Part shown: one piece after another, positions 11,853 to 21,848 of the stretch
How the letters are laid out: every line of letters starts with the position of its first letter
Numbering within the stretch: the first letter of the stretch is position 1
Virus record (IMG/VR): IMGVR_UViG_3300013126_003222
Location: 1-21,848 of that record
Source of the DNA: a virus
Strand: one strand, 5' to 3'
Length of the DNA: 21,848 nucleotides
Made by a program: the position numbers and the translations under genes
The notes under the pieces: generated by a model
Seen by the model: the letters and a program-made list of their open reading frames with translations, nothing else
Told to the model about the DNA's origin: nothing
Databases searched by the model: none

Positions 11853-12541
11853 TTAGCCTTGAGGCATAACATTGTTTTGGTCCTGTATTCGAAGCATCAT
11901 CTCTTTTGAGTTTCTTGCAACTTCCAAAAGCTCAATGATGATTGCAGGCTGATCGTAGAAACCACCGTCTACGATCTTCATTCCAAATTTTTCTAATGTC
12001 TCTAAGGCTGTAAGGATGTCTGGTTTTACTGGCACTTTGTTGCTTGCGCCAAGCCGAAGCTCGTTCAGGTAGCCATAATAATCCTGGACCTGCTGCTCGA
12101 TTTCTTCAACTATCCCCCTTCGCCAGCTTTTCCCGCAGGTCCCCACTGCGGATTGGCGACGCGGCAAATCTCGGAAATCTCGTTGGCAACGAACGGGGGG
12201 AGTTGCCCCCACGCAATGAAGAATTCTTTTGTTCCCATCGGCTTGCTGTTCTCGAACTTGAAAAGCGGCGAGCCGTCCGCGGCTTCGATGTCGCAAGCGA
12301 TCATTGTGAGACGCACTTCCTCGCGCTTGACATCCTCGACGGTGATGCTGGAGTCCAGGACAACTGCGGTATCGGTGTATTCGCGGCGGGTTGGGTTTTT
12401 GTACTGAGCCATTGATTCTTCGTCGCCCTGGGTGGCGGCGCGGAAAGAAACCCAGGTGCCGGGTTCTCCTTCGCCAAACTTTGCGTCCGACTTTTCGAGA
12501 CGTTTTCGAGTGATCACTGGTACAGGTAGCTTGAATGGCAT
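11853..12541 (-). CDS. Tail assembly chaperone, long -1 frameshift form (lambda gpGT-like)
   Basis: The long product reads 138 residues in the short-form frame through GPAGK, slips -1 on G GGA AAA (12128-12134) and continues for 91 residues, starting SWRRGIVEEIEQQVQDYYGY and ending QDQNNVMPQG before TAA at 11853, for 229 residues in all. The extension has no ATG, GTG or TTG start near its beginning, so it cannot easily be a separate gene, while its amino-acid makeup (helical, acidic) looks like real coding sequence. In lambda the gpG:gpGT ratio matters and the T part binds the tail tube protein. Its stop lies 15 bp before the tape-measure start. The location join is 12541..12128 then 12128..11853 in the -1 frame. 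Confidence 0.85.
12110..12541 (-). CDS. Tail assembly chaperone, short form (lambda gpG-like)
   Basis: This 143-residue protein begins MPFKLPVPVITRKRLEKSD. The ATG at 12541 is chosen because AGGAG lies 8 nt upstream; the frame stays open further upstream, but that part translates only the hairpin before the gene. It sits between the tail tube and tape-measure genes, the place of the gpG/gpGT pair in lambda and most long-tailed phages. These chaperones bind the tape measure and recruit tube subunits, and are absent from the mature virion. Sequence similarity to gpG is not obvious, as is usual. Codons are rich in C/G-ending forms, as in the tail tube gene, suggesting high expression. The reading frame ends at TAG (12110-12112) five codons after a GGGAAAA slippery heptamer. 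Confidence 0.85.
   Translation of the reverse strand: MPFKLPVPVITRKRLEKSDAKFGEGEPGTWVSFRAATQGDEESMAQYKNPTRREYTDTAVVLDSSITVEDVKREEVRLTMIACDIEAADGSPLFKFENSKPMGTKEFFIAWGQLPPFVANEISEICRVANPQWGPAGKAGEGG
12128..12134 (-). other. Programmed -1 ribosomal frameshift slippery heptamer G GGA AAA
   Basis: Read in the chaperone frame the codons are GCG GGA AAA GCT, so the heptamer fits the X-XXY-YYZ rule with X = G, Y = A, Z = A. It differs from lambda's GGGAAAG only in the last base. The zero-frame stop is six codons downstream. A second run, A GGG GGA, directly before the stop is less able to slip because the first base is A. Confidence 0.85.
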
Positions 12542-12561: not shown

Positions 12562-12596
12562 AATGTGGGTGCCGACTTTTTGCCGACACCCACATT
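12562..12596 (-). terminator. 15-bp hairpin between tail tube and chaperone genes; attenuator or processing site
   Basis: The arms AATGTGGGTG and CACCCACATT (12562-12571 and 12587-12596) pair perfectly. The inner five positions pair only in the minus-strand RNA, where two would-be mismatches become G-U pairs; the loop is AAAAA. The RNA continues UUUCUAUAUAGGAG, a weak U-tract that runs straight into the chaperone SD. It could be a leaky terminator lowering chaperone and tape-measure expression relative to the tail tube, or an RNase site. A TATAAT (12594-12599) overlaps its upstream arm with no good -35. Confidence 0.55.
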
Positions 12597-12618: not shown

Positions 12619-13674
12619 TTAGACGGGCCAGACGTAGGAAGCGGTTTTATTGCGCAGGGTGAAGATCGCGTAATTGGTTGCTTCGAGCGCGACGCCAGTG
12701 AAGCGCAGCATGACGGCGTTGTTTCCGGCGAGCTGAATGCCGCCTTGCTGAGTCATCATCACGCTGTCCGCGGCGACAGTGAGCGAGTAAGGCTCGGTTT
12801 CTGACGGCATGTCCATCGAGGAGACAGTCTTGACCTCGAACGATGAAGTGTAAGGCTTGCCGGACCAGGTAGTCCCAGTTGCTCCGCCAGCGTGAACTTT
12901 GCGGTACAAGGTTGGATCCTGCCATTTGCAGGTAATGTCGTACATCAGGCGGCGCTGGATGATGGTCACATCTTCGATGTACGGATCGCCATAGACGCGC
13001 TCAGTGCGCATGTCAAGGGGGACGTTCTGGAATCCAACCTGCGCAGACACAACGGGAAGTTCCGAGCCGTCGATCTTCAGGTAGCCGCCGGTTTGACAGG
13101 CAACGGGAGCGGACTGCCAATCTTCCATCGTGTTTGCGTAAGTCCACAAATGCGGGTCGGGATCGAAGGTGTATTTGCGCCCGACAACATCGAAGCGCAT
13201 CGTTAGCGGGGCGTCATTCGGGAGGACGAGCGATCCACCGACGATCTTGCAGTCCTCGTAACGTTCGCCAAGATCAGTGTCGGCATCGTTATCCTTGCGC
13301 GGGACGACTTTCCGGAAGCCCATGTAGGGGACGTAGGTCGAGTCGGATGACGACAGCTTGAATGCGTGATCGTACACATCCAGATTGTAGGGGTCGGCGG
13401 CGCTGGTGACTGAGCCAAGAAGCCCGTAGAGCAACCAGCCGAAAGTGCTTTGCAGGCGCGGCTGGAGAGTTGCGCCACCGGCTACGACAAGCCCGGCTTT
13501 GTACGGGAAAGTGGGGACTGCGATGCCGCCGATTTCAGGCGGACCTTCGCGCACGTCATCAACGGGAGCGAGATCGACCATCGTCGCGCGATGGCGATAC
13601 CAGGTAGTCGGGTTTGCACCTTTTGCGCTTTGAGCGCCGAACGAAAAAACACCTGCTTGAGCTGAAACTGCCAA
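12619..13674 (-). CDS. Major tail tube protein
   Basis: The likely start is TTG at 13674, because GGAGG lies 8 nt upstream; the protein begins MAVSAQAGVFSFGAQSAKG and has 351 residues. A GTG start at 13701 would add nine residues but lacks an SD. The sequence is beta-rich, with many G-, T- and S-containing strands (for example GGSLVLPNDAPLTMRFDVVGRKY) and no membrane segment. A protein of this size and fold directly before the chaperone frameshift pair matches the long-tailed-phage tail tube, which stacks as hexamers around the tape measure. No sheath gene is visible beside it, which points to a non-contractile tail. Codon choice is C/G-ending, consistent with high expression. The family-level match is inferred from position, size and strand pattern. 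Confidence 0.78.
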   Translation of the reverse strand: MAVSAQAGVFSFGAQSAKGANPTTWYRHRATMVDLAPVDDVREGPPEIGGIAVPTFPYKAGLVVAGGATLQPRLQSTFGWLLYGLLGSVTSAADPYNLDVYDHAFKLSSSDSTYVPYMGFRKVVPRKDNDADTDLGERYEDCKIVGGSLVLPNDAPLTMRFDVVGRKYTFDPDPHLWTYANTMEDWQSAPVACQTGGYLKIDGSELPVVSAQVGFQNVPLDMRTERVYGDPYIEDVTIIQRRLMYDITCKWQDPTLYRKVHAGGATGTTWSGKPYTSSFEVKTVSSMDMPSETEPYSLTVAADSVMMTQQGGIQLAGNNAVMLRFTGVALEATNYAIFTLRNKTASYVWPV

Positions 13675-13694
13675 AATAATATCCTCCGCACAGA

Positions 13695-13717
13695 AAGACA
13701 CTATGTCTTACAGTGTC
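13695..13717 (-). promoter_or_regulatory. Two mutually exclusive small hairpins upstream of the tail tube SD
   Basis: AAGACA-TAG-TGTCTT (13695-13709) forms a 6-bp stem, and GACACT...AGTGTC (13697-13717) forms another 6-bp stem that shares the same bases, so only one can exist at a time. Both lie 8-10 nt before the GGAGG site (13683-13687). They could influence ribosome access or RNA stability, but stems this short can arise by chance. Confidence 0.25.
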
Positions 13718-13728
13718 GTTCGTGCCAT

Positions 13729-13760
13729 AAAAAATAAAAAGAAAATTACGGACGCTCCGT
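13729..13760 (-). terminator. Candidate intrinsic terminator at the end of the second connector gene
   Basis: In the minus-strand RNA, ACGGA-GCG-UCCGU (13748-13760) forms a GC-rich 5-bp stem that includes the stop codon region. It is followed directly by AAUUUUCUUUUUAUUUUUU, a long U-rich tract (to about 13729). This is the best stem-plus-U-tract in the window. The stem is short, so termination may be partial; the next gene, the tail tube, starts about 55 nt downstream. Confidence 0.45.
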
Positions 13761-14288: not shown

Positions 14289-14978
14289 TTATTTTGACGT
14301 GATTCCTTTTGTCATTTGCGGGATTCGCTTCATTTCAGTTTCAAACATTGTCATAAAAGCCTTCGCCATTTCGTAGGTCGGATTATCTTCCGGGTTTCCA
14401 GAATCGACTTTGGTGTTGTACTGGCGAAGAACTGCCGATCCAGACGCTCTTTGCAGCATACAGTAGGCTGTTGCATAGAACACCACCGCGTTTGTCAGGA
14501 CTGCCGGGCACGAAAGCGGAACGTCATCAATCAATGGGTGATAGGCGTCTACGACAGGCTTTTCCCAAAGCGCGGAATAATAGATCTTCACGCCTTCTTC
14601 CGCTTCGGATGTAAGAGTGATTTTTCCGTATGGGTAAGTGATGAAGCCCTGACCCGGTTCATTTCCAACCATAAACCTAACTCTCTCGATGAGAGTTTGA
14701 GTTTTTCGATCCAGGACGGCCTCAATTTCGATGAGGTCGTCCGGGATGTCGATTTCAGTAACTGCCGTTTCGATTTCGAAAACAGATGGCTTCCAGATCC
14801 TTTGGCTGGTCGCGTCCAGGGCCGCCTCGATGCCAGAGAGGAGAACCGACTCGTTCGTCTGCGTCCCATGAATGGGAAGAGCGAGAGTGGGGGACGACGC
14901 GCCTTCCTCGTAAACCAACTGGTCGCTGAGGAGGTCAATAACGCGAGCCTTAACTTCGCCTACAGTAATGAAAGCCAT
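14289..14978 (-). CDS. Head-tail adaptor (connector) protein
   Basis: This 229-residue protein begins MAFITVGEVKARVIDLLSDQ. GGAG lies 7 nt before the ATG, and the gene begins 15 bp after the capsid stop. The N-terminal helix opening TVGEVKARVIDLL, the middle VTEIDIPDDLIEIEAVL segment and the C-terminal helices are of the type seen in phage adaptor proteins that bind beneath the portal ring (HK97 gp6 / SPP1 gp15 class), which are usually encoded right after the major capsid gene. The position is right and no other adaptor candidate exists. Assignment is by context and helical pattern; no specific family signature is seen. Confidence 0.65.
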   Translation of the reverse strand: MAFITVGEVKARVIDLLSDQLVYEEGASSPTLALPIHGTQTNESVLLSGIEAALDATSQRIWKPSVFEIETAVTEIDIPDDLIEIEAVLDRKTQTLIERVRFMVGNEPGQGFITYPYGKITLTSEAEEGVKIYYSALWEKPVVDAYHPLIDDVPLSCPAVLTNAVVFYATAYCMLQRASGSAVLRQYNTKVDSGNPEDNPTYEMAKAFMTMFETEMKRIPQMTKGITSK

Positions 14979-14993
14979 CTATCTTCTCCGTGT

Positions 14994-16391
14994 TTAGTAC
15001 AAGTCGTCAGGGGTGATGATGCCACCAGCCTTGGGCAGGGAGACAGCAGTAAAGTGAGCCTCGAAGAGGTTCGGTTCCCAAATATTCCAGCCCAGGTTCG
15101 CGTCCCACACAAAACGGTAAACAGACTCGAAGTCGTCAACGGGTTTCGGTTCGTAGAACTCAACCGGCTTGTTGACGCTGCCCATGATCGCGCCGCGGGA
15201 GCCGAGCACCAGGTTGAAACCGATGTGCATGGCTTTGGTGACGTAGGCGTACACGCCGGAGGTGATCGCAACCTTGTAGTCCTTCATGATCGGACGGTCA
15301 AAAGACAGGCGGTTGTTGGTGTGATCGACAGCCACAACGCGCCGAACGATGGTCTTCCCTGACAGGAAGTTCACACCATCGGCTACGCCATAGGCGCTGG
15401 TTTTCAGGGTGTGGATCGACACGATGTCGCCAACCTCAAATTCGCTATCCGCGAAATCGGAACACTGGATGTAGTGGACAACATCCTTCTGACCCACGTA
15501 CCAAACATCATCGACGGCGACGGTAGCAGGGTCGGGAGCGCCATCACCGGCAGTGATGGCAGCAGTCACATTGACCTGCTTTTTGATCTTGCCAGCGTTG
15601 TACAGAATGCTGGAGTTTGTGCCGTAGTTGTCGGACGGATTGACCTGGAAGCGGACGTTCTTGTACAGACCGACCTCGTACTTGAGGGGGTTCTGATACA
15701 TCTGAGCATCACGCCACAGAGCGGCTTCGTTGCCAGTGGCAGAATAGAGGGACTGCTGGAAGTCGTAGTACGCGCCGGGAGGCACGATCACGAGTTTCGC
15801 ATTTTGCGCATCGCCGGGGATGACGGGGCTGCCAGTCGCGCCAATGCGCAGGTTCCACGCATTCACCATTTCGAGGTTGAAGGTGTCGCCGGGTCCGAGT
15901 TCGGCAAAGCTGGTCTTTCCGTTTGCGTAAGTCCAGAAGGTCTTGGGCCCTGCCAGGAACGCATTGCGGGAGAGGATTTCCATCTTGCGGCGGACGTTGT
16001 TGCCGAGAACGGCGCGAAGCAGGGGACGCCAATCGCGCCCACCGCTCATCTTCCACTGCGAGAAGTAGCTGGACGACTTGTGAACCTGCACCTTGTCGCC
16101 GTAGCGCTTCACAGTGATTTTGCGGGAACGGCTGTCGAGACCGTTCGGCTGCTCGATGTAATTCGAGGTGAACGAGATTTCGTCGTTGTCGACATCGCCT
16201 TCGAGCAGGTCAAAGAACTCGCTGGTCTGTGCGCCGGTGACAGCCGAGCGATCAGTCCAGTCGACAAGGGGGCTGAAAATGGTCGGTCCTTGCTGGAAGT
16301 TCATCACAACTTCCGGCACCTTGTCATCCCATTTGTTTTGGTCGATGACCGCAACGGGATTCATGTTGTAATAGTCAAAAAGATCAGCCAT
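14994..16391 (-). CDS. Major capsid protein
   Basis: This 465-residue protein begins MADLFDYYNMNPVAVIDQNK. AGGAG lies 8 nt before the ATG. The pattern KITVKRYGDKVQVHKSS...NNVRRKMEILSRNAFLAG (about 91-148) followed by the strand NAKLVIVPPGAYYDFQQSL (198-215) resembles the HK97-fold capsids of the N4 gp56 type, with an extended strand, a long spine helix and then the axial domain. Residues about 272-385 look like an inserted beta-rich domain (VDDVWYVG..., DSEFEVGDIVSIHTL, NNRLSFDRP), possibly on the capsid surface. It follows a scaffold gene and precedes the connectors, as expected. Codons are strongly C/G-ending (CGC, CTG, AAC, GAC) compared with its neighbours, fitting the most abundant virion protein. 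No cleaved N-terminal delta domain is apparent. Confidence 0.82.
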   Translation of the reverse strand: MADLFDYYNMNPVAVIDQNKWDDKVPEVVMNFQQGPTIFSPLVDWTDRSAVTGAQTSEFFDLLEGDVDNDEISFTSNYIEQPNGLDSRSRKITVKRYGDKVQVHKSSSYFSQWKMSGGRDWRPLLRAVLGNNVRRKMEILSRNAFLAGPKTFWTYANGKTSFAELGPGDTFNLEMVNAWNLRIGATGSPVIPGDAQNAKLVIVPPGAYYDFQQSLYSATGNEAALWRDAQMYQNPLKYEVGLYKNVRFQVNPSDNYGTNSSILYNAGKIKKQVNVTAAITAGDGAPDPATVAVDDVWYVGQKDVVHYIQCSDFADSEFEVGDIVSIHTLKTSAYGVADGVNFLSGKTIVRRVVAVDHTNNRLSFDRPIMKDYKVAITSGVYAYVTKAMHIGFNLVLGSRGAIMGSVNKPVEFYEPKPVDDFESVYRFVWDANLGWNIWEPNLFEAHFTAVSLPKAGGIITPDDLY

Positions 16392-16438: not shown

Positions 16439-17134
16439 TTACGAAGCCTCCTTCTTTGACAATTCGAGATACTCGCCGTATAGCTTCTGGTATTCTGCGC
16501 CATTTCCGCGCATTGCGGCTTGCTGCGCTTCGTGGAGCTTCATTTGTGAGCTGGTTACGCTTTGTTTCTTGCCAGCAGGCTCTCCGGCGGATCCGCCCTC
16601 AGCGTGCTGCTTACGAGCTTCGCCTGAAATCTTTTCAAGGCTTGCGGAAAAAAGACCGAGCGCACCTTCAAGCTCTTCAAGCGGCTTCTGCGGAAGGAGT
16701 CCCTGGCTCTCGAACGTGGACAAATGAGGAAATTTCTCCATGATCAATGACTTGCGCTTGATGTCGGCTTCAAGGGTTCCAACAAGCCCTTCCTTCTCGG
16801 AAAGCGTTTTTGCGACAGTTTCTTTTTCGGCTTGAAGACCATCAAACTGCGACTTCAAAGTCGTGTACTCAGTCACTTTCGCTTTGAGGTTGTCCTGCTC
16901 GGTTTGCAAAGTCCTCTGCAAGCCGGCGTACTTGGCTTTCCATTCGCTTTCAGTCGTGGAGAGCTTTGCAACTGCGGTCTCGTACAACGCCTTGTAGTCC
17001 TCGCCGCCACCAGATGACCCAGAGTTGCCAGCGGCTCCAGACCCACCTTCACCGGCACCGCCACCAGCACCTTCGCCAGCACCAGCACCGCCAGCGCCAC
17101 TTTGATCGAGCATTTTGAAACGTTTCACTAACAT
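16439..17134 (-). CDS. Capsid scaffolding protein
   Basis: This 231-residue protein begins MLVKRFKMLDQSGAGG. AGGAG lies about 10 nt before the ATG. Residues 13-44 are almost only Gly, Ala, Ser and Glu, a flexible tract. Residues about 46-135 form a long coiled coil (for example TEQDNLKAKVTEYTTLKSQF and LQAEKETVAKTLSEKEGLVG). The C-terminus has a helix with AMRGNGAEYQKLYGEYLELS, of the kind that docks to the capsid shell in other scaffolds. Placement between portal and major capsid protein is standard for an internal scaffold that guides procapsid assembly and leaves afterward. No protease motif (Ser/His) is visible in it or nearby, so scaffold exit may not need a phage-encoded protease in this block. 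Confidence 0.82.
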   Translation of the reverse strand: MLVKRFKMLDQSGAGGAGAGEGAGGGAGEGGSGAAGNSGSSGGGEDYKALYETAVAKLSTTESEWKAKYAGLQRTLQTEQDNLKAKVTEYTTLKSQFDGLQAEKETVAKTLSEKEGLVGTLEADIKRKSLIMEKFPHLSTFESQGLLPQKPLEELEGALGLFSASLEKISGEARKQHAEGGSAGEPAGKKQSVTSSQMKLHEAQQAAMRGNGAEYQKLYGEYLELSKKEAS

Positions 17135-17159
17135 ATCTTTTTTTCTCCTGGCTATTTTT

Positions 17160-17211
17160 TACGGCTTGTAGGAGAGCCACTCCTGGGCCGTACATAGACG
17201 CATTTCTGCGT
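17160..17211 (-). promoter_or_regulatory. Two-hairpin RNA element before the scaffold gene, able to mask its SD
   Basis: The minus-strand RNA first forms ACGCA-GAAA-UGCGU (17198-17211), closed by a GNRA tetraloop. After 5 nt a nested stem forms: UACGGC...GCCGUA (17187-17192 with 17160-17165) enclosing AGGAG-UGGCU-CUCCU (17180-17184 with 17170-17174). The same CUCCU arm can instead pair with the true scaffold SD, AGGAG at 17145-17149, even slightly better (UCUCCU with AGGAGA). This gives two exclusive states, one with the SD free and one with it masked. There is no U-tract, so it is not an intrinsic terminator. Confidence 0.5.
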
Positions 17212-17219
17212 TGGTTGTT

Positions 17220-18848
17220 TTATTCATCGGAGCTTTTCGCGCTCACCGAAGCTCCGTCAGGCGGTTTCTTTGCGCCAGACTTGTAGTCGGAGTTCCGAAT
17301 TTTGTTGTCTACCTGGCCGGACTTTCCGCCAAAGCCGGGCTTTCCATCTTTGCCGCCGAGAGGATTGTCTTTCGCCGTCGCCTCTGCGATCTTCTTCTTT
17401 TCCTCGACCATTCTCTCGAACTCGGTATCCGGATCGTCTATGTCGTCGGTCAAAGACATTAGGTGGCGCTTACTGCCAATTTCAGATGAAGCACGAAGGG
17501 AAATTTCGTTTATCAACGTTTCCCTGTCTCTCGGAAGCATTGGAGCCCATTTCGTGATGAAGCTGAGTTGCGCATCTTCTTTCGTTATCCCATCGAGCTT
17601 TTTCTCTGCCATCATCTTGATCAAAATCTCAATGAACACAGAAAGACCGGCAGACCAGTTTGCGCGCTCCATTTCGACGTGGCTTACGAGCGGCCACATT
17701 CTTGTATTAAGGGTAAGGCTCGATCTTTGCGAACCCTGATCCTCTCCATCAGCCACAGCGGGATGATCGACTTCGCGCCGATACATTGTTTCAAGCCTGT
17801 CTGCGAACTTCAACATTGGCTCGGACGCAGACTTTACAGAGACAGCCCACAAGTCCGGCTTGTCGGCTTCACTGAGACCAGTCGATGATCCAAGATCGAG
17901 TATTCTCTTTCCGTCTGCGAGAGCGACATATTTCGGCGTCGATGTCATATTTCGGCCAGCAGTAATCGTGTGGGAGTCCTCTGATACGGCATCACCGATG
18001 TCTGTGTCTCTCAGATTCATCTCCTTTATCACGCCTTTGACAAATTCAGTAATAAGGGATTCGCCAATAAATCTACCCTCGCGGATATGAGGAATGTAAA
18101 CCATCGGAACAACGCCGAAGGGGTTTTTCCCTTCCAGCTTCTCGCCATTCTTCTCTATCACGCGCCCATTGATTGCAATTCTGTATTTTGTTGGCGTCCA
18201 CCATTCCGTATAGTAGTAAATCGTCGAATCTTCGCTCACCAGGTCGGGGAAATATGAACGAGCCTCGAGGTAGTCGATTTCACGAACAATCCATCCTTCA
18301 CGAAGTCTGAAGTAATTTGCTCCATCAGGAACGCCAACAAACTCATCGGGATCCGGAGCGGTAATTTCTATTTCGCCATCTTCCCCGAGGTCGGGCCTCC
18401 ATTTTGCGGCAAGGACGGATCCGCCGAGATATTGCGAGATGATTCCGTTTGAAATGAAGGTTGACGTAAGGTTGCTTCTGGACATGACCTTCATGACTTT
18501 CTCTATAACTTCCTTGCCCCTCTTCTTCTTTTCTTTTTCGCCGGACGGAATAAATGACACTGGAAGATTTTTCATCTTCATCGAGTCAACGTTTAGCCCG
18601 AAAAGAACAGCAGTATGCTTTCTGCAAGTCTGTTTGAGCGGATTGATTTTGATTGGATACTTTTCTGCCGTCTGCGCCCCCTGCTTTATTTCCTCGTTCA
18701 AGGGATCTCCGCGATACCAACGTCTCAAATCTTCATAATACGTCTTTTGAGAATACCACGAGACATACGGAAATCCCCGCTCAAGCTGTAGTGAGTAGGG
18801 GCCTGCCGCGATTGTGCCGAGAGTTTTTTGAAAAAAGGATTTTAGCAT
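17220..18848 (-). CDS. Portal protein
   Basis: This 542-residue protein begins MLKSFFQKTLGTIAAGPYSL. The region SWYSQKTYYEDLRRWYRGD (about 30-48) and INPLKQTCRKHTAVLFGLN (about 68-86) match the usual portal opening, where the chain enters the wing domain. A middle part with beta-strands (for example FVGVPDGANYFRLREGWIV) is followed by a long helical segment and the GESLITEFVKGVIKEMNLRD region. The C-terminal ~45 residues are Gly/Lys/Ser-rich and probably disordered. Portals form the dodecameric DNA entry ring, dock the terminase and anchor the neck. Gene order (terminase-phosphoesterase-portal-scaffold-capsid) supports the call. The ATG has no recognisable SD (GCGTCTATTTAA precedes it), unlike most genes here, so its translation may be weaker, which suits a 12-copy protein. 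Confidence 0.85.
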   Translation of the reverse strand: MLKSFFQKTLGTIAAGPYSLQLERGFPYVSWYSQKTYYEDLRRWYRGDPLNEEIKQGAQTAEKYPIKINPLKQTCRKHTAVLFGLNVDSMKMKNLPVSFIPSGEKEKKKRGKEVIEKVMKVMSRSNLTSTFISNGIISQYLGGSVLAAKWRPDLGEDGEIEITAPDPDEFVGVPDGANYFRLREGWIVREIDYLEARSYFPDLVSEDSTIYYYTEWWTPTKYRIAINGRVIEKNGEKLEGKNPFGVVPMVYIPHIREGRFIGESLITEFVKGVIKEMNLRDTDIGDAVSEDSHTITAGRNMTSTPKYVALADGKRILDLGSSTGLSEADKPDLWAVSVKSASEPMLKFADRLETMYRREVDHPAVADGEDQGSQRSSLTLNTRMWPLVSHVEMERANWSAGLSVFIEILIKMMAEKKLDGITKEDAQLSFITKWAPMLPRDRETLINEISLRASSEIGSKRHLMSLTDDIDDPDTEFERMVEEKKKIAEATAKDNPLGGKDGKPGFGGKSGQVDNKIRNSDYKSGAKKPPDGASVSAKSSDE

Positions 18849-18966
18849 TTAAATAGACGCAAACAAAAAAGGTTGAATTTTCCAATTTTTATCTACGCTA
18901 TCTTGTTCAGGAAAGCAGCCTGAACTCGCATATATTACCACAATTTCTCAGAGTCTGAGAAATTGT
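18849..18966 (-). promoter_or_regulatory. 118-bp structured non-coding gap before the portal gene
   Basis: Two perfect inverted repeats lie here: ACAATTTCTCAG-3 nt-CTGAGAAATTGT (18940-18966), a 12-bp stem that abuts the phosphoesterase stop codon, and GTTCAGG-7 nt-CCTGAAC (18905-18925). Neither is followed by a U-tract on the minus strand, so classical termination is doubtful. AT-rich blocks (TAATATATG, GATAAAAATTGG, CCTTTTTTG) follow. They could hold a promoter, but I see no pair of good -35 and -10 boxes. The last bases, TGCGTCTATTTAA, repeat in the gap after the portal. Confidence 0.5.
18940..18966 (-). repeat. Perfect 12-bp inverted repeat with 3-nt loop
   Basis: The two arms are exact reverse complements with AGT (plus strand) between them, and the repeat begins one base after the phosphoesterase stop. 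It is AT-rich (8 of 12 pairs). It could be an RNA processing hairpin that separates terminase-phosphoesterase mRNA from portal mRNA, or a dyad bound by a protein dimer. Confidence 0.75.
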
Positions 18967-20241
18967 CTATCCGATTGCGTTTATATTTGAAATTAATCCT
19001 TCTGTCTTATGGTACAAAAACGCTTCTGCGGAACGCTTTCCGCCGATAAATCCCTTCCCGAAGTGCCACACGTCTGCGCCAGTCATGGACATAAGGTACC
19101 TGAAAACGATCCCGTTTATCGTTTCAGTCTTGAACTGGAGCGCCTTTGTTTTGTGGTAGTGCCCAAGATGCCATTCTCTATGCTGAGTTTCAGCCCACAT
19201 GGATGGCTCTTCAAGCGGCATCATCCCGGCGAGTCTATCCAGACTCATTTCGCCGTGATTAAATCCAATCATTGACGTTCCGAATTTGTAGTACCTTGTT
19301 GCCTTTGGGCGATTATCTACCTTGACGTACTTCGACCTGCTGTAGAATGCGGCAATAACTTCACCCATATAAAACGTTCTCGTTGCGTCGTGATTCCCTG
19401 GCATAATCAAAACGTCAACAGGAGCAACTTTTTCGCAAGTCTCGATCATTTTTCTGGCGAGATTTGTCCCGAACCTAAATGTTCTTGTCCATCTATCCTC
19501 TTCTTGCTGAGGAGTTCCCTTTGTCGTAGTTCCGCTTGCGTTATCTGAATTGAAAAAATCATTCCCAAGCGGAAGTAGTATTTTCGATATTCTTTCCTTC
19601 CCTGCTCTTTGAAGCAGCTTTGACAACGCATTTGACACCATTTGCTCCGCGACGCTCATGCTGTAATCGTGCGCGCTTTCCTCTGACCACGTTAACTTCC
19701 CGAAGTGAATATCCGGAAAATCAATCTCCAGCATCATTTCACCTTTGCGCCCTACGGACACCGGCTTAGGGAGCGACTTGTACGCGCGCGAAAAATCTCT
19801 CAGAAGATCGTCTTTTATTCTTTGCGCATCAATCTCAAAAGTCTTCCTTCTCAAAAAGGCCTTTACGTTATAAAGAGTCTTTGTGATCAACTTCCCGCTG
19901 TCTTTCACACTTCCGTAAATTACCATCCCATTCCTGACTTCCCATTCAACCTGCCTGTCTTTTCGATAACCCTGATTTGTTCCGCTTGTCCAGTTCTCGA
20001 CAATCCACACGCCTGTGTCTATCTGGCACGAGAAAATAAGATCGTCAAGAGACATGATCGGCCTGTCAAATACAGCCGACACAACAGCTTTACCATTTGG
20101 CTTTTCAGCAAATGAAACCGCTCCTGGTTCCGTTTGCTTTCTTCCGTAATGCTTGCAGGACTTACACTCGTACCTTGCGCCATGCGAAATTGTATTCTTT
20201 GAGCCACACTTGTCGCACTGGTATTTATTTCCGTCTAGCAT
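18967..20241 (-). CDS. Zinc-ribbon metallophosphoesterase (calcineurin-like)
   Basis: The ATG at 20241 is preferred, because AGGAG lies 8 nt upstream; the frame also allows TTG at 20268 overlapping the terminase stop, without an SD. The protein then has 424 residues and begins MLDGNKYQCDKCGSKN. Cys9, Cys12, Cys26 and Cys29 form a zinc ribbon. The catalytic core shows all main calcineurin-like motifs in order: D177-I-H179, G226-N-D228, G282-N-H-D285, H329 (FNHGE) and G360-H-Y-H363, which bind two metal ions. Such enzymes cut phosphodiesters or phosphomonoesters, and SbcD/Mre11 nucleases belong here. About 130 residues between ribbon and core are of unknown fold. It lies 23 bp after the terminase gene, so a role in DNA end processing during packaging is possible, but the substrate cannot be read from sequence. 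Confidence 0.9.
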   Translation of the reverse strand: MLDGNKYQCDKCGSKNTISHGARYECKSCKHYGRKQTEPGAVSFAEKPNGKAVVSAVFDRPIMSLDDLIFSCQIDTGVWIVENWTSGTNQGYRKDRQVEWEVRNGMVIYGSVKDSGKLITKTLYNVKAFLRRKTFEIDAQRIKDDLLRDFSRAYKSLPKPVSVGRKGEMMLEIDFPDIHFGKLTWSEESAHDYSMSVAEQMVSNALSKLLQRAGKERISKILLPLGNDFFNSDNASGTTTKGTPQQEEDRWTRTFRFGTNLARKMIETCEKVAPVDVLIMPGNHDATRTFYMGEVIAAFYSRSKYVKVDNRPKATRYYKFGTSMIGFNHGEMSLDRLAGMMPLEEPSMWAETQHREWHLGHYHKTKALQFKTETINGIVFRYLMSMTGADVWHFGKGFIGGKRSAEAFLYHKTEGLISNINAIG

Positions 20242-20264
20242 AGCGGATTCTCCTTTGTCCTCTA

Positions 20265-21848
20265 TCAACGACTACGTTCCTTGGCGGACGAATACCTGGA
20301 CGAATGTACGAACGGGACTCTAATTCTCCCAGTCCTGCGTAGGAATAAAGCATTCTCAAAAGTGAAAGCAGGATTGGTATCATCTTGGTCGCCACGATTG
20401 ACGCCATAAGTGCTTTTGACCTGGAAGCCAAAGATTGACGAAGCCGCAACGAGGTCTTGCGGAAATTTCGAATTGGTTGTTTTGTCTTCAAATGGATCAT
20501 AATTTGTAAGTTGAGCAGATAGTCCTGTGGCTATCGAAGGCCATTTCACGGAAGTGCTTTCAATTAGCAGTTTGAGCGACAAAAGATATGTGTACCTTTT
20601 CATTCCAGAAAAATCAAATCCAAGTATTCTGTTTACGGAATATCCTTTATTCGCAACAAGTTGCAAGGTTGCAAGTTCAGCGGTGTGCTTTTGCGTGGAC
20701 GTATTGTCTACGCCGCACTTCATCGGTCTGTATTTCACTATCCAGTTTACCATCATGGATAAGAATGGGGTTATGCTTCCATTTCCAGAACCCCACCACA
20801 TTGCTTGCAGAAATGATAGTTTTGGCGCGTCCGTTATGTCCCACAGAAGCCAAACCGGAGAATTTCTTTTTGGCGCGTTGTCTGTTCCAGGATCCCCAAC
20901 CATCCAGTAGAGCCTTCCGTCTTCTGGCGGAGCCTCGAAGTGGTAGTACCCAATTCGAGGCGATGACTTGGCGACGTATCCAGTAAGGCCTTTTGCGGCT
21001 CCTTCCAATATTTTTTCAGACAAAATCTCATCTTCGCACTTGATGACATCAGCCTTTGGAAAGTACGTGCCTCTACCTTCGGGCCTCTTGCCAGTCGTGT
21101 ACCTTTCTCTTTCAGACTCTGGAATAAGAGACAACATGCGCTTCAGTTGTTTTTCTGTAACATTCTGATTGTCTTTTGTCTCTATTTCGAGTGCGAGTCC
21201 ATTTTCTTCGTCGGAGGCAGCCAGGTCGTACATTTCCCAAAGGTCGGGATTCTCCCACGGATTTGACAAGATCGACATCCTGCCCATGTACGATCTTCCT
21301 TCTGCGGTATTGCCAGTAAGGCGCGTCGATAATGTAGAAATGATTTCCGAGAGCCCTTCGATGCGCCCTCCTTCATCAACGTTGATCCAGTCGCCTCTCC
21401 ACGAAAAGATGTTTGAGGCATCGCCTTTCTCTCCAAGAGACATAAACTCCTGAGTTGACTTTACGATCCTCACGCCGCTTTCAGTCTGGACTCCGTATCT
21501 CCAGACTATGAGTGGATACGGCTTGCTTGGCGCGGCAAACAAAAAATCTTCCGCGGGAGTTCCTGCTATGTTCTCAAGAATTAGGTCATACATCAGCTTC
21601 GATTGCCAGGCTTCTCGGGCAATGTTAAGGAACTTGAAGCCCGGCGTCATCAGCGAGTGATACATGCCAGACAGCCCCGCAGCAAGTGTTTTCCCAGTTC
21701 CAATCCCAGCCACGACAACTACAAACGTCTGCATCGCCATGCAGAACGAATTTTGCCATTTTCCTTTTTCGGTAAAGTTGTAATCAAGCTGAAAAGGCCT
21801 GTCAACGCCAGGCCTGGAAAGCAGATATGAAAACAGGATATTTGGATC
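20265..21848 (-). CDS. Terminase large subunit (5' end outside window)
   Basis: The frame is open to the right edge: 36 codons lie upstream of the first internal ATG (21740), including RPFQLDYNFTEKGKWQNSF, so the true start lies beyond the window; 527 residues are visible. ATPase motifs are Walker A G-I-G-T-G-K-T (visible residues 48-54), Walker B WINVDE (Asp158-Glu159) and the coupling motif near SNPWEN. The C-terminal nuclease of RNase H fold shows its acidic residues at GDPG (Asp319), GVDNT (Asp381) and PQDLVAA (Asp465). The enzyme pumps DNA through the portal and cuts concatemers. The C-terminal tail is basic and charged (RSRYSSAKERSR type). Whether packaging is headful or by cos cutting cannot be decided here. 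The small subunit is not visible and probably lies to the right. Confidence 0.93.
   Translation of the reverse strand, partial: DPNILFSYLLSRPGVDRPFQLDYNFTEKGKWQNSFCMAMQTFVVVVAGIGTGKTLAAGLSGMYHSLMTPGFKFLNIAREAWQSKLMYDLILENIAGTPAEDFLFAAPSKPYPLIVWRYGVQTESGVRIVKSTQEFMSLGEKGDASNIFSWRGDWINVDEGGRIEGLSEIISTLSTRLTGNTAEGRSYMGRMSILSNPWENPDLWEMYDLAASDEENGLALEIETKDNQNVTEKQLKRMLSLIPESERERYTTGKRPEGRGTYFPKADVIKCEDEILSEKILEGAAKGLTGYVAKSSPRIGYYHFEAPPEDGRLYWMVGDPGTDNAPKRNSPVWLLWDITDAPKLSFLQAMWWGSGNGSITPFLSMMVNWIVKYRPMKCGVDNTSTQKHTAELATLQLVANKGYSVNRILGFDFSGMKRYTYLLSLKLLIESTSVKWPSIATGLSAQLTNYDPFEDKTTNSKFPQDLVAASSIFGFQVKSTYGVNRGDQDDTNPAFTFENALFLRRTGRIRVPFVHSSRYSSAKERSR

Follow-up and report, generated by a model that had tools for sequence, protein, structure and literature searches.

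The 85 nt that separate the portal gene of this phage from its scaffold gene (17135-17219, exactly the intergenic gap) were found to fold, on the coding strand, into two hairpins. These are followed by an A-rich single strand that carries a strong scaffold Shine-Dalgarno (SD) sequence. The reading preferred here, tentatively and as one that may well prove wrong, is that of a static two-hairpin intercistronic spacer. Downstream of the portal stop codon the hairpins would act as passive structure, setting scaffold initiation apart from the ribosomes that terminate on the portal gene and leaving the A-rich stretch open for the 30S subunit to land on; the ratio of portal to scaffold output would be fixed mainly by start-site strength and not by a conformational switch. 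Such a switch had been proposed in the first-pass annotation, in which CUCCU has two alternative partners, an upstream decoy AGGAG and the scaffold SD. As the main reading it was rejected on the loss of the decoy stem in the nearest relative, the energies of the two states and the comparison of SD pairing with shuffled leaders.

Gene order and fold of the portal-scaffold gap

The window (the whole stretch of DNA that was analysed, 21,848 bases) is the entire virus record, and the minus strand is the coding strand for the structural genes. These were assigned as follows:

20265-21740, minus strand, TerL slot (by position and matching gene order in relatives)
18967-20268, minus strand, exonuclease-like gene
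17220-18848, minus strand, portal gene, SPP1 gp6-like (phrog_64, E 2.6e-24; PF05133, E 6.9e-15)
16439-17134, minus strand, scaffold gene (between portal and MCP, with homologues in the corresponding slot of relatives)
14994-16391, minus strand, MCP gene (by position and matching gene order in relatives)
14289-14978, minus strand, SU10-type adaptor gene (match below the Pfam cut-off)
12619-13701, minus strand, tail tube gene

No family match was obtained for TerL, scaffold or MCP in PHROGs or Pfam. The tail tube ORF as called begins with a GTG at 13701 behind a weak SD (-1.4 kcal/mol); the T-rich gap upstream of it (13702-13745, minus strand) contains a very short ATG ORF, and the true start of the gene is uncertain. 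The tail tube gene is separated from the next gene by a 10-bp hairpin, AAUGUGGGUG/CACCCACAUU (12562-12596, minus strand), and the 161-aa ORF listed from 12595 begins inside this hairpin because its real start is probably the ATG at 12541, behind UAUAGGAG.

The features of the gap were read from the sequence and, for the stems, from the predicted fold:

17198-17211, minus strand, hairpin 1, ACGCA-GAAA-UGCGU with a GNRA loop, 8 nt past the portal stop codon
17160-17192, minus strand, hairpin 2, with the outer stem UACGGC/GCCGUA (17187-17192 with 17160-17165)
17170-17184, minus strand, inner 'decoy' stem AGGAG/CUCCU of hairpin 2 (17184-17180 with 17174-17170)
17155-17160, minus strand, A run immediately 3' of the outer stem of hairpin 2 (AAAAA also in the nearest relative, L018)
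17145-17149, minus strand, scaffold SD AGGAG, 10 nt before the ATG (anti-SD duplex -7.4 kcal/mol)
17159-17203, minus strand, 14-codon ORF (MRLCTAQEWLSYKP), judged not to be a gene

The three stems described in the first-pass annotation, the GNRA-capped hairpin and the exact 6-bp outer stem among them, were thus all recovered on the minus strand. The longest stem in the fold is 6 bp. Hairpin 2 ends 25 nt before the scaffold ATG, and the ribosome-binding site lies downstream of it.

The gap has an MFE of -20.7 kcal/mol, against means near -13.5 kcal/mol for dinucleotide shuffles of the minus strand, and shuffles at least as stable were obtained 3 times in 200 (z -2.59), 5 in 500 (z -2.82) and 7 in 500 (z -2.44). 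The folding-energy comparison proposed earlier therefore came out in favour of structure (z -2.4 to -2.8), and the fold beats chance at about 1-2% when counted as one test. The further claim that the gap holds more structure than expected by chance stands against shuffled sequence, but the strength of that structure is ordinary. Among same-strand gaps of 60-130 nt, delimited by mechanically called ORFs and drawn from the window and the relatives retrieved (60 shuffles each, some near-duplicate contigs included), z was -2 or lower in 34 of 68 and -2.4 or lower in 30 of 68; structured gaps are therefore common in these phages. The gap MFE is also unremarkable against the remaining genome, 549 of 1451 sliding 85-nt windows, mostly of coding DNA, folding as well.

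No match was found across the window with Rfam (release 15) at the family gathering cut-offs. An intrinsic terminator was considered for the gap and rejected: hairpin 2 is followed by A and not by U, and a scan of the coding (minus) strand of the gap returned no terminator-like site and no sigma-70-like site.

Relatives and conservation of the stems

IMG/VR and GTDB contigs were scanned using queries and alignments of TerL, MCP and portal, and loci L002-L123 were retrieved, many of which share contigs. Named phages gave no match by tblastn of the portal, TerL and MCP or by blastn of the junction; the portal used as a single query against viral contigs yielded no confirmed relative, and the exact hairpin pattern was found in none of the viral contigs searched. 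Among these loci 55 portal ends were distinct, and 42 had a recognisable scaffold gene. A direct portal-scaffold gap of 85-93 nt was present in three of these 42: L018 (87 nt), L019 (88 nt) and L024 (93 nt). In the remaining relatives the genes overlap or nearly touch, or additional genes lie between portal and scaffold. The commonest added gene noticed was a conserved 73-aa ORF, seen in 51 of the searched loci and missing from the window, L018, L019 and L024; between portal and scaffold this gene (MAAxVxAxDRxxHSAxGxGRFPI..ALKLRGxx) occupies L010:4063-4284, L013:3858-4079, L003:3743-3964 and L005:4322-4543.

That the gap holds a remnant of this 73-aa gene, or that the 14-codon ORF is real, is scarcely credible. 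By eye, the peptide QEWLSYK is similar to the QAWLEDKK terminus of the 73-aa gene product, and the gene is missing from the window, L018, L019 and L024; tblastn of the 73-aa gene against the gap, however, returned no match at E 1, and the remnant was rejected. The 14-codon ORF (MRLCTAQEWLSYKP) has no counterpart in the gap of the sister phage L018, nor in the frames of L019 and L024, and was rejected as a gene.

The nearest relative is L018, whose MCP is 70% identical, and it was the one close relative found in the IMG/VR and GTDB collections searched. A 30-row MCP tree pairs the window with L018 as sisters (100/100) and places L019 and L024 in other groups, its backbone being without resolution. 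Because of this placement, homology of the element is arguable for the window and L018 only, and the L019 hairpins may be independent. Two different portal relatives (L118 and L126) were noted on separate contigs of one Magnetococcales MAG, the second contig stopping 108 nt past the portal; one of 48 genomes of the class of this host-like MAG carried a portal relative, namely the MAG itself. The MAG is a possible hint of the host group, and its contigs may be mis-binned phage DNA.

In a plain MAFFT alignment of the window with L018, made on sequence only, hairpin 2 is in register and gap-free. Five of the six outer-stem pairs are kept, three of them through changes on both sides, but the inner AGGAG/CUCCU stem keeps only two of five pairs, three being broken. 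The covariation check suggested for 17160-17192 thus bore out the outer stem, with three double changes, and went against the decoy stem. Hairpin 1 keeps three of five pairs in the fixed alignment; its core CGCA/UGCG is common to both phages if the alignment gap is shifted by hand. By eye, the loop and inner-stem sequences differ between the two, and there is no conserved loop. When dinucleotide shuffles of L018 were re-aligned, at least five outer pairs were reached in 15 of 600, and at least three double changes as well in 6 of 600. If substitution is taken as unconstrained, with identity at the observed 61.5%, the corresponding probabilities are 0.13 and 0.0024; the first is not small, and the weight of the outer stem rests on the double changes, which are those between two sequences, the window and L018.

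The presence of hairpin 1 and the outer stem at a fixed place was scored in other leaders by a registered test (base-pair probabilities at the window's positions with a slack of 6 nt, a test chosen after the L018 and L019 folds had been seen). The score of the L018 leader was reached by 1 of 400 shuffles (17 of 400 when the SD region was included) and that of L019 by 0 of 400 (1 of 400), whereas L024, with its 93-nt gap, failed (313 of 400; 298 of 400). For the full gap, fold z was -2.82 in the window, -1.69 in L018, -2.14 in L019 and -2.30 in L024. The gaps of L047 (132 nt, z -0.69) and L004 (73 nt, followed by a different gene, z -0.76) are unstructured. As a structured intercistronic element, then, the gap shows a fold beyond shuffles at a fixed place, though not in L024, and compensatory changes between two sequences.

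These comparisons bear on three readings. Chance or weakly constrained spacer structure, of the sort present in many intergenic gaps, would fit the 34 of 68 comparable gaps that reach z -2, the different layout of L024 and the unstructured L047 and L004 gaps; it accounts poorly for the compensatory outer stem of L018 (6 of 600 shuffles) and for the registered layout in both L018 and L019, and it is considered rather unlikely. A processing or stability element, in which the hairpins would protect ends or mark a cut so that scaffold-MCP mRNA outlasts portal mRNA, is unlikely too. The gap is located between low-copy and high-copy genes with A/U-rich single strand beside its stems, the hairpins are kept in L018 and L019, and half of the long same-strand gaps are structured, as expected of segment borders. 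Against such an element, a long duplex of the RNase III type is missing, the longest stem being 6 bp, and the coding strand of the gap carries no terminator-like site. For the static spacer, too, these data are not uniformly favourable, since most relatives lack the element and L024 fails the registered test.

Pairing of the scaffold SD

With the CUCCU-SD pair enforced, the predicted energy of the window is -16.2 kcal/mol, 4.5 kcal/mol above the ground state of -20.7 kcal/mol. The window thus offers no pair of mutually exclusive folds similar in energy of which one hides the SD, and the switching arms are neither conserved nor covarying, the decoy/anti-SD stem being held at two of five pairs in L018. 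The complementarity of UCUCCU to the SD is exact over 6 nt, a length reached by 33 of 1000 shuffled leaders, but this is a consequence of the decoy being a copy of the SD. Relative to shuffles, the leader-SD duplex energy ranked at 32/1000 in the window, 171/1000 in L018, 732/1000 in L019 and 230/1000 in L024; the standout value of the window is a by-product of the same copying, and the energies of the other three phages are ordinary.

A different exclusive state was predicted for L018. In its MFE fold (-20.5 kcal/mol) the 3' arm of the hairpin 2 outer stem pairs with the SD, and the state with hairpin 2 intact lies at -19.1 kcal/mol, 1.4 kcal/mol away; according to the folding model, L018 is poised between two folds, through another arm than that of the window. 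In L019 a CCUUUUU just past hairpin 2 is predicted to pair with the SD without disturbing hairpin 2, and in L024 the local SD pairing is similar to that of L019; no exclusive SD-pairing state of the L018 kind was found in either.

A probability of unpaired GGAG as low as the native one, or lower, was obtained with 154 of 200 shuffled leaders for the window, 18 of 200 for L018, 150 of 200 for L019 and 91 of 200 for L024. By this model there is no clear excess of SD sequestration in any of the four phages, L018 coming nearest. The same figures weigh against insulation of the SD by a static spacer, the SD not being predicted to be more open than behind shuffled leaders, and once 40 nt of coding sequence were added the window SD was mostly paired (probability unpaired 0.13).

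What survives of the original proposal is structured RNA immediately ahead of the scaffold SD, with an outer stem kept by compensatory change in L018. The two-state switch itself is now given very little credence: the near-isoenergetic exclusive state of L018 and the exact 6-nt complementarity speak for it, and it is opposed by the loss of the decoy stem in L018, the 4.5 kcal/mol cost of the alternative state, SD pairing that is not clearly above that of shuffled leaders in any of the four phages, and the ordinary SD duplex energies of L018, L019 and L024. Very improbable as well, taken as one joint reading, is autogenous control in which scaffold or coat protein would hold or melt hairpin 2, so that its 3' side would cover or release the scaffold SD, through a lineage-specific arm (the inner one used in the window and the outer one in L018).

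Start-site strength, known systems and the neighbouring portal leader

Tailed phages build with about twelve portal subunits and hundreds of scaffold subunits, encoded by neighbouring genes, and this jump in copy number had been offered as an argument for a switch. In the window the anti-SD duplex energy is +1.2 kcal/mol at the portal start, -7.4 kcal/mol at the scaffold start and -6.9 kcal/mol at the MCP start. Across the relatives, with some rows from the same contig and the portal start chosen by the analyst as the in-frame start lying closest to that expected, portal starts were weaker than -2 kcal/mol in 6 of 10 (window included), the other four having some SD (-4.2 to -8.7 kcal/mol). Scaffold starts ranged from -4.0 to -9.3 kcal/mol in all 12 rows (-7.3 or stronger in 11), and MCP starts were -6.4 kcal/mol or stronger in 12 of 12. 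Because the portal start has no SD and the scaffold and MCP SDs are strong, the copy-number jump needs no switch; we infer that static start strength can be enough for it, and this is the simpler explanation.

Hairpins close to translation starts are well documented in phage mRNAs, and the gap is filed with them as a structured intercistronic spacer. In T4 genes e, soc and 49 the SD or start codon lies within a helix (PMC3014915); these share with the gap a phage mRNA structure at a translation start, but the SD of the gap is outside both hairpins in the ground state. The split ribosome-binding sites of T4 genes 25 and 38 have a hairpin between SD and AUG that aids translation (PMC3014915), whereas the hairpin of the gap, likewise near a phage start codon, precedes the SD. 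In SPP1, whose portal family (PF05133) is also that of the window phage, most non-coding segments longer than 45 bp contain promoters or terminators, and five segments separate genes that share a transcription unit (PMC6316719); compared with the spacers so described, the gap has neither a terminator-like nor a sigma-70-like site on its coding strand. The Lactococcus abiD1 leader has a secondary-structure motif at the translation start that is bound by a regulator, with activation by phage Orf1 (PMC2661086). It is alike in having structure at that place and differs in that the gene is one of host resistance and its activator a phage protein. The operator of T4 gene 43 (DNA polymerase) is a hairpin that precedes the start codon by some tens of nt; the ribosome-binding site follows it, and its loop, largely conserved, is bound by the gene product (PMC3014915). 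It resembles the gap in the order of hairpin and ribosome-binding site, but the loops and inner stem of the gap are not conserved.

By analogy with the gene 43 layout, hairpin 2 might be a putative operator on which scaffold or coat protein represses scaffold translation, a quite improbable reading. Hairpin 2 does stop 25 nt before the ATG, with the ribosome-binding site after it, and the scaffold protein of phage P22 is autoregulated; an operator would, however, be expected to keep its recognised loop bases, and the loop and inner stem differ between the window and L018. The literature searched, one P22 paper included, yielded nothing recognisably on the topic of scaffold autoregulation.

The exonuclease-portal gap next door (18849-18966, minus strand) folds far more strongly than the portal-scaffold gap (z -6.46, 0 of 500 shuffles). 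A 12-bp perfect hairpin comes right after the upstream gene, and a second, long terminator-like hairpin stops a few bases short of the SD-less portal ATG. The same order of elements, with other stem sequences, was observed in L051:3310-3500, and a hairpin plus U run right before the portal ATG in L024:925-1112, L020:840-1029 and L055:2496-2685. In several divergent relatives, portal starts behind a terminator-like hairpin have no SD or a poor one, and another terminator-like hairpin stands farther upstream. Promoter-like sequences begin 84 nt (TTGACA-17-TATTAT, L024) and 98 nt (TTGACT-17-TACAAT, L055) before the ATG. By sequence, this looks like a promoter-leader-terminator arrangement ahead of the late operon and suggests an attenuated or antiterminated late leader.

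On the question of portal versus scaffold dosage, the sequence favours a simple answer, that of start-site strength together with a structured spacer, and the attractive decoy switch does not pass its first comparison between relatives. The portal leader is the more striking RNA, and attention is redirected to it, since its terminator-like hairpin adjoins an SD-less start in several lineages.
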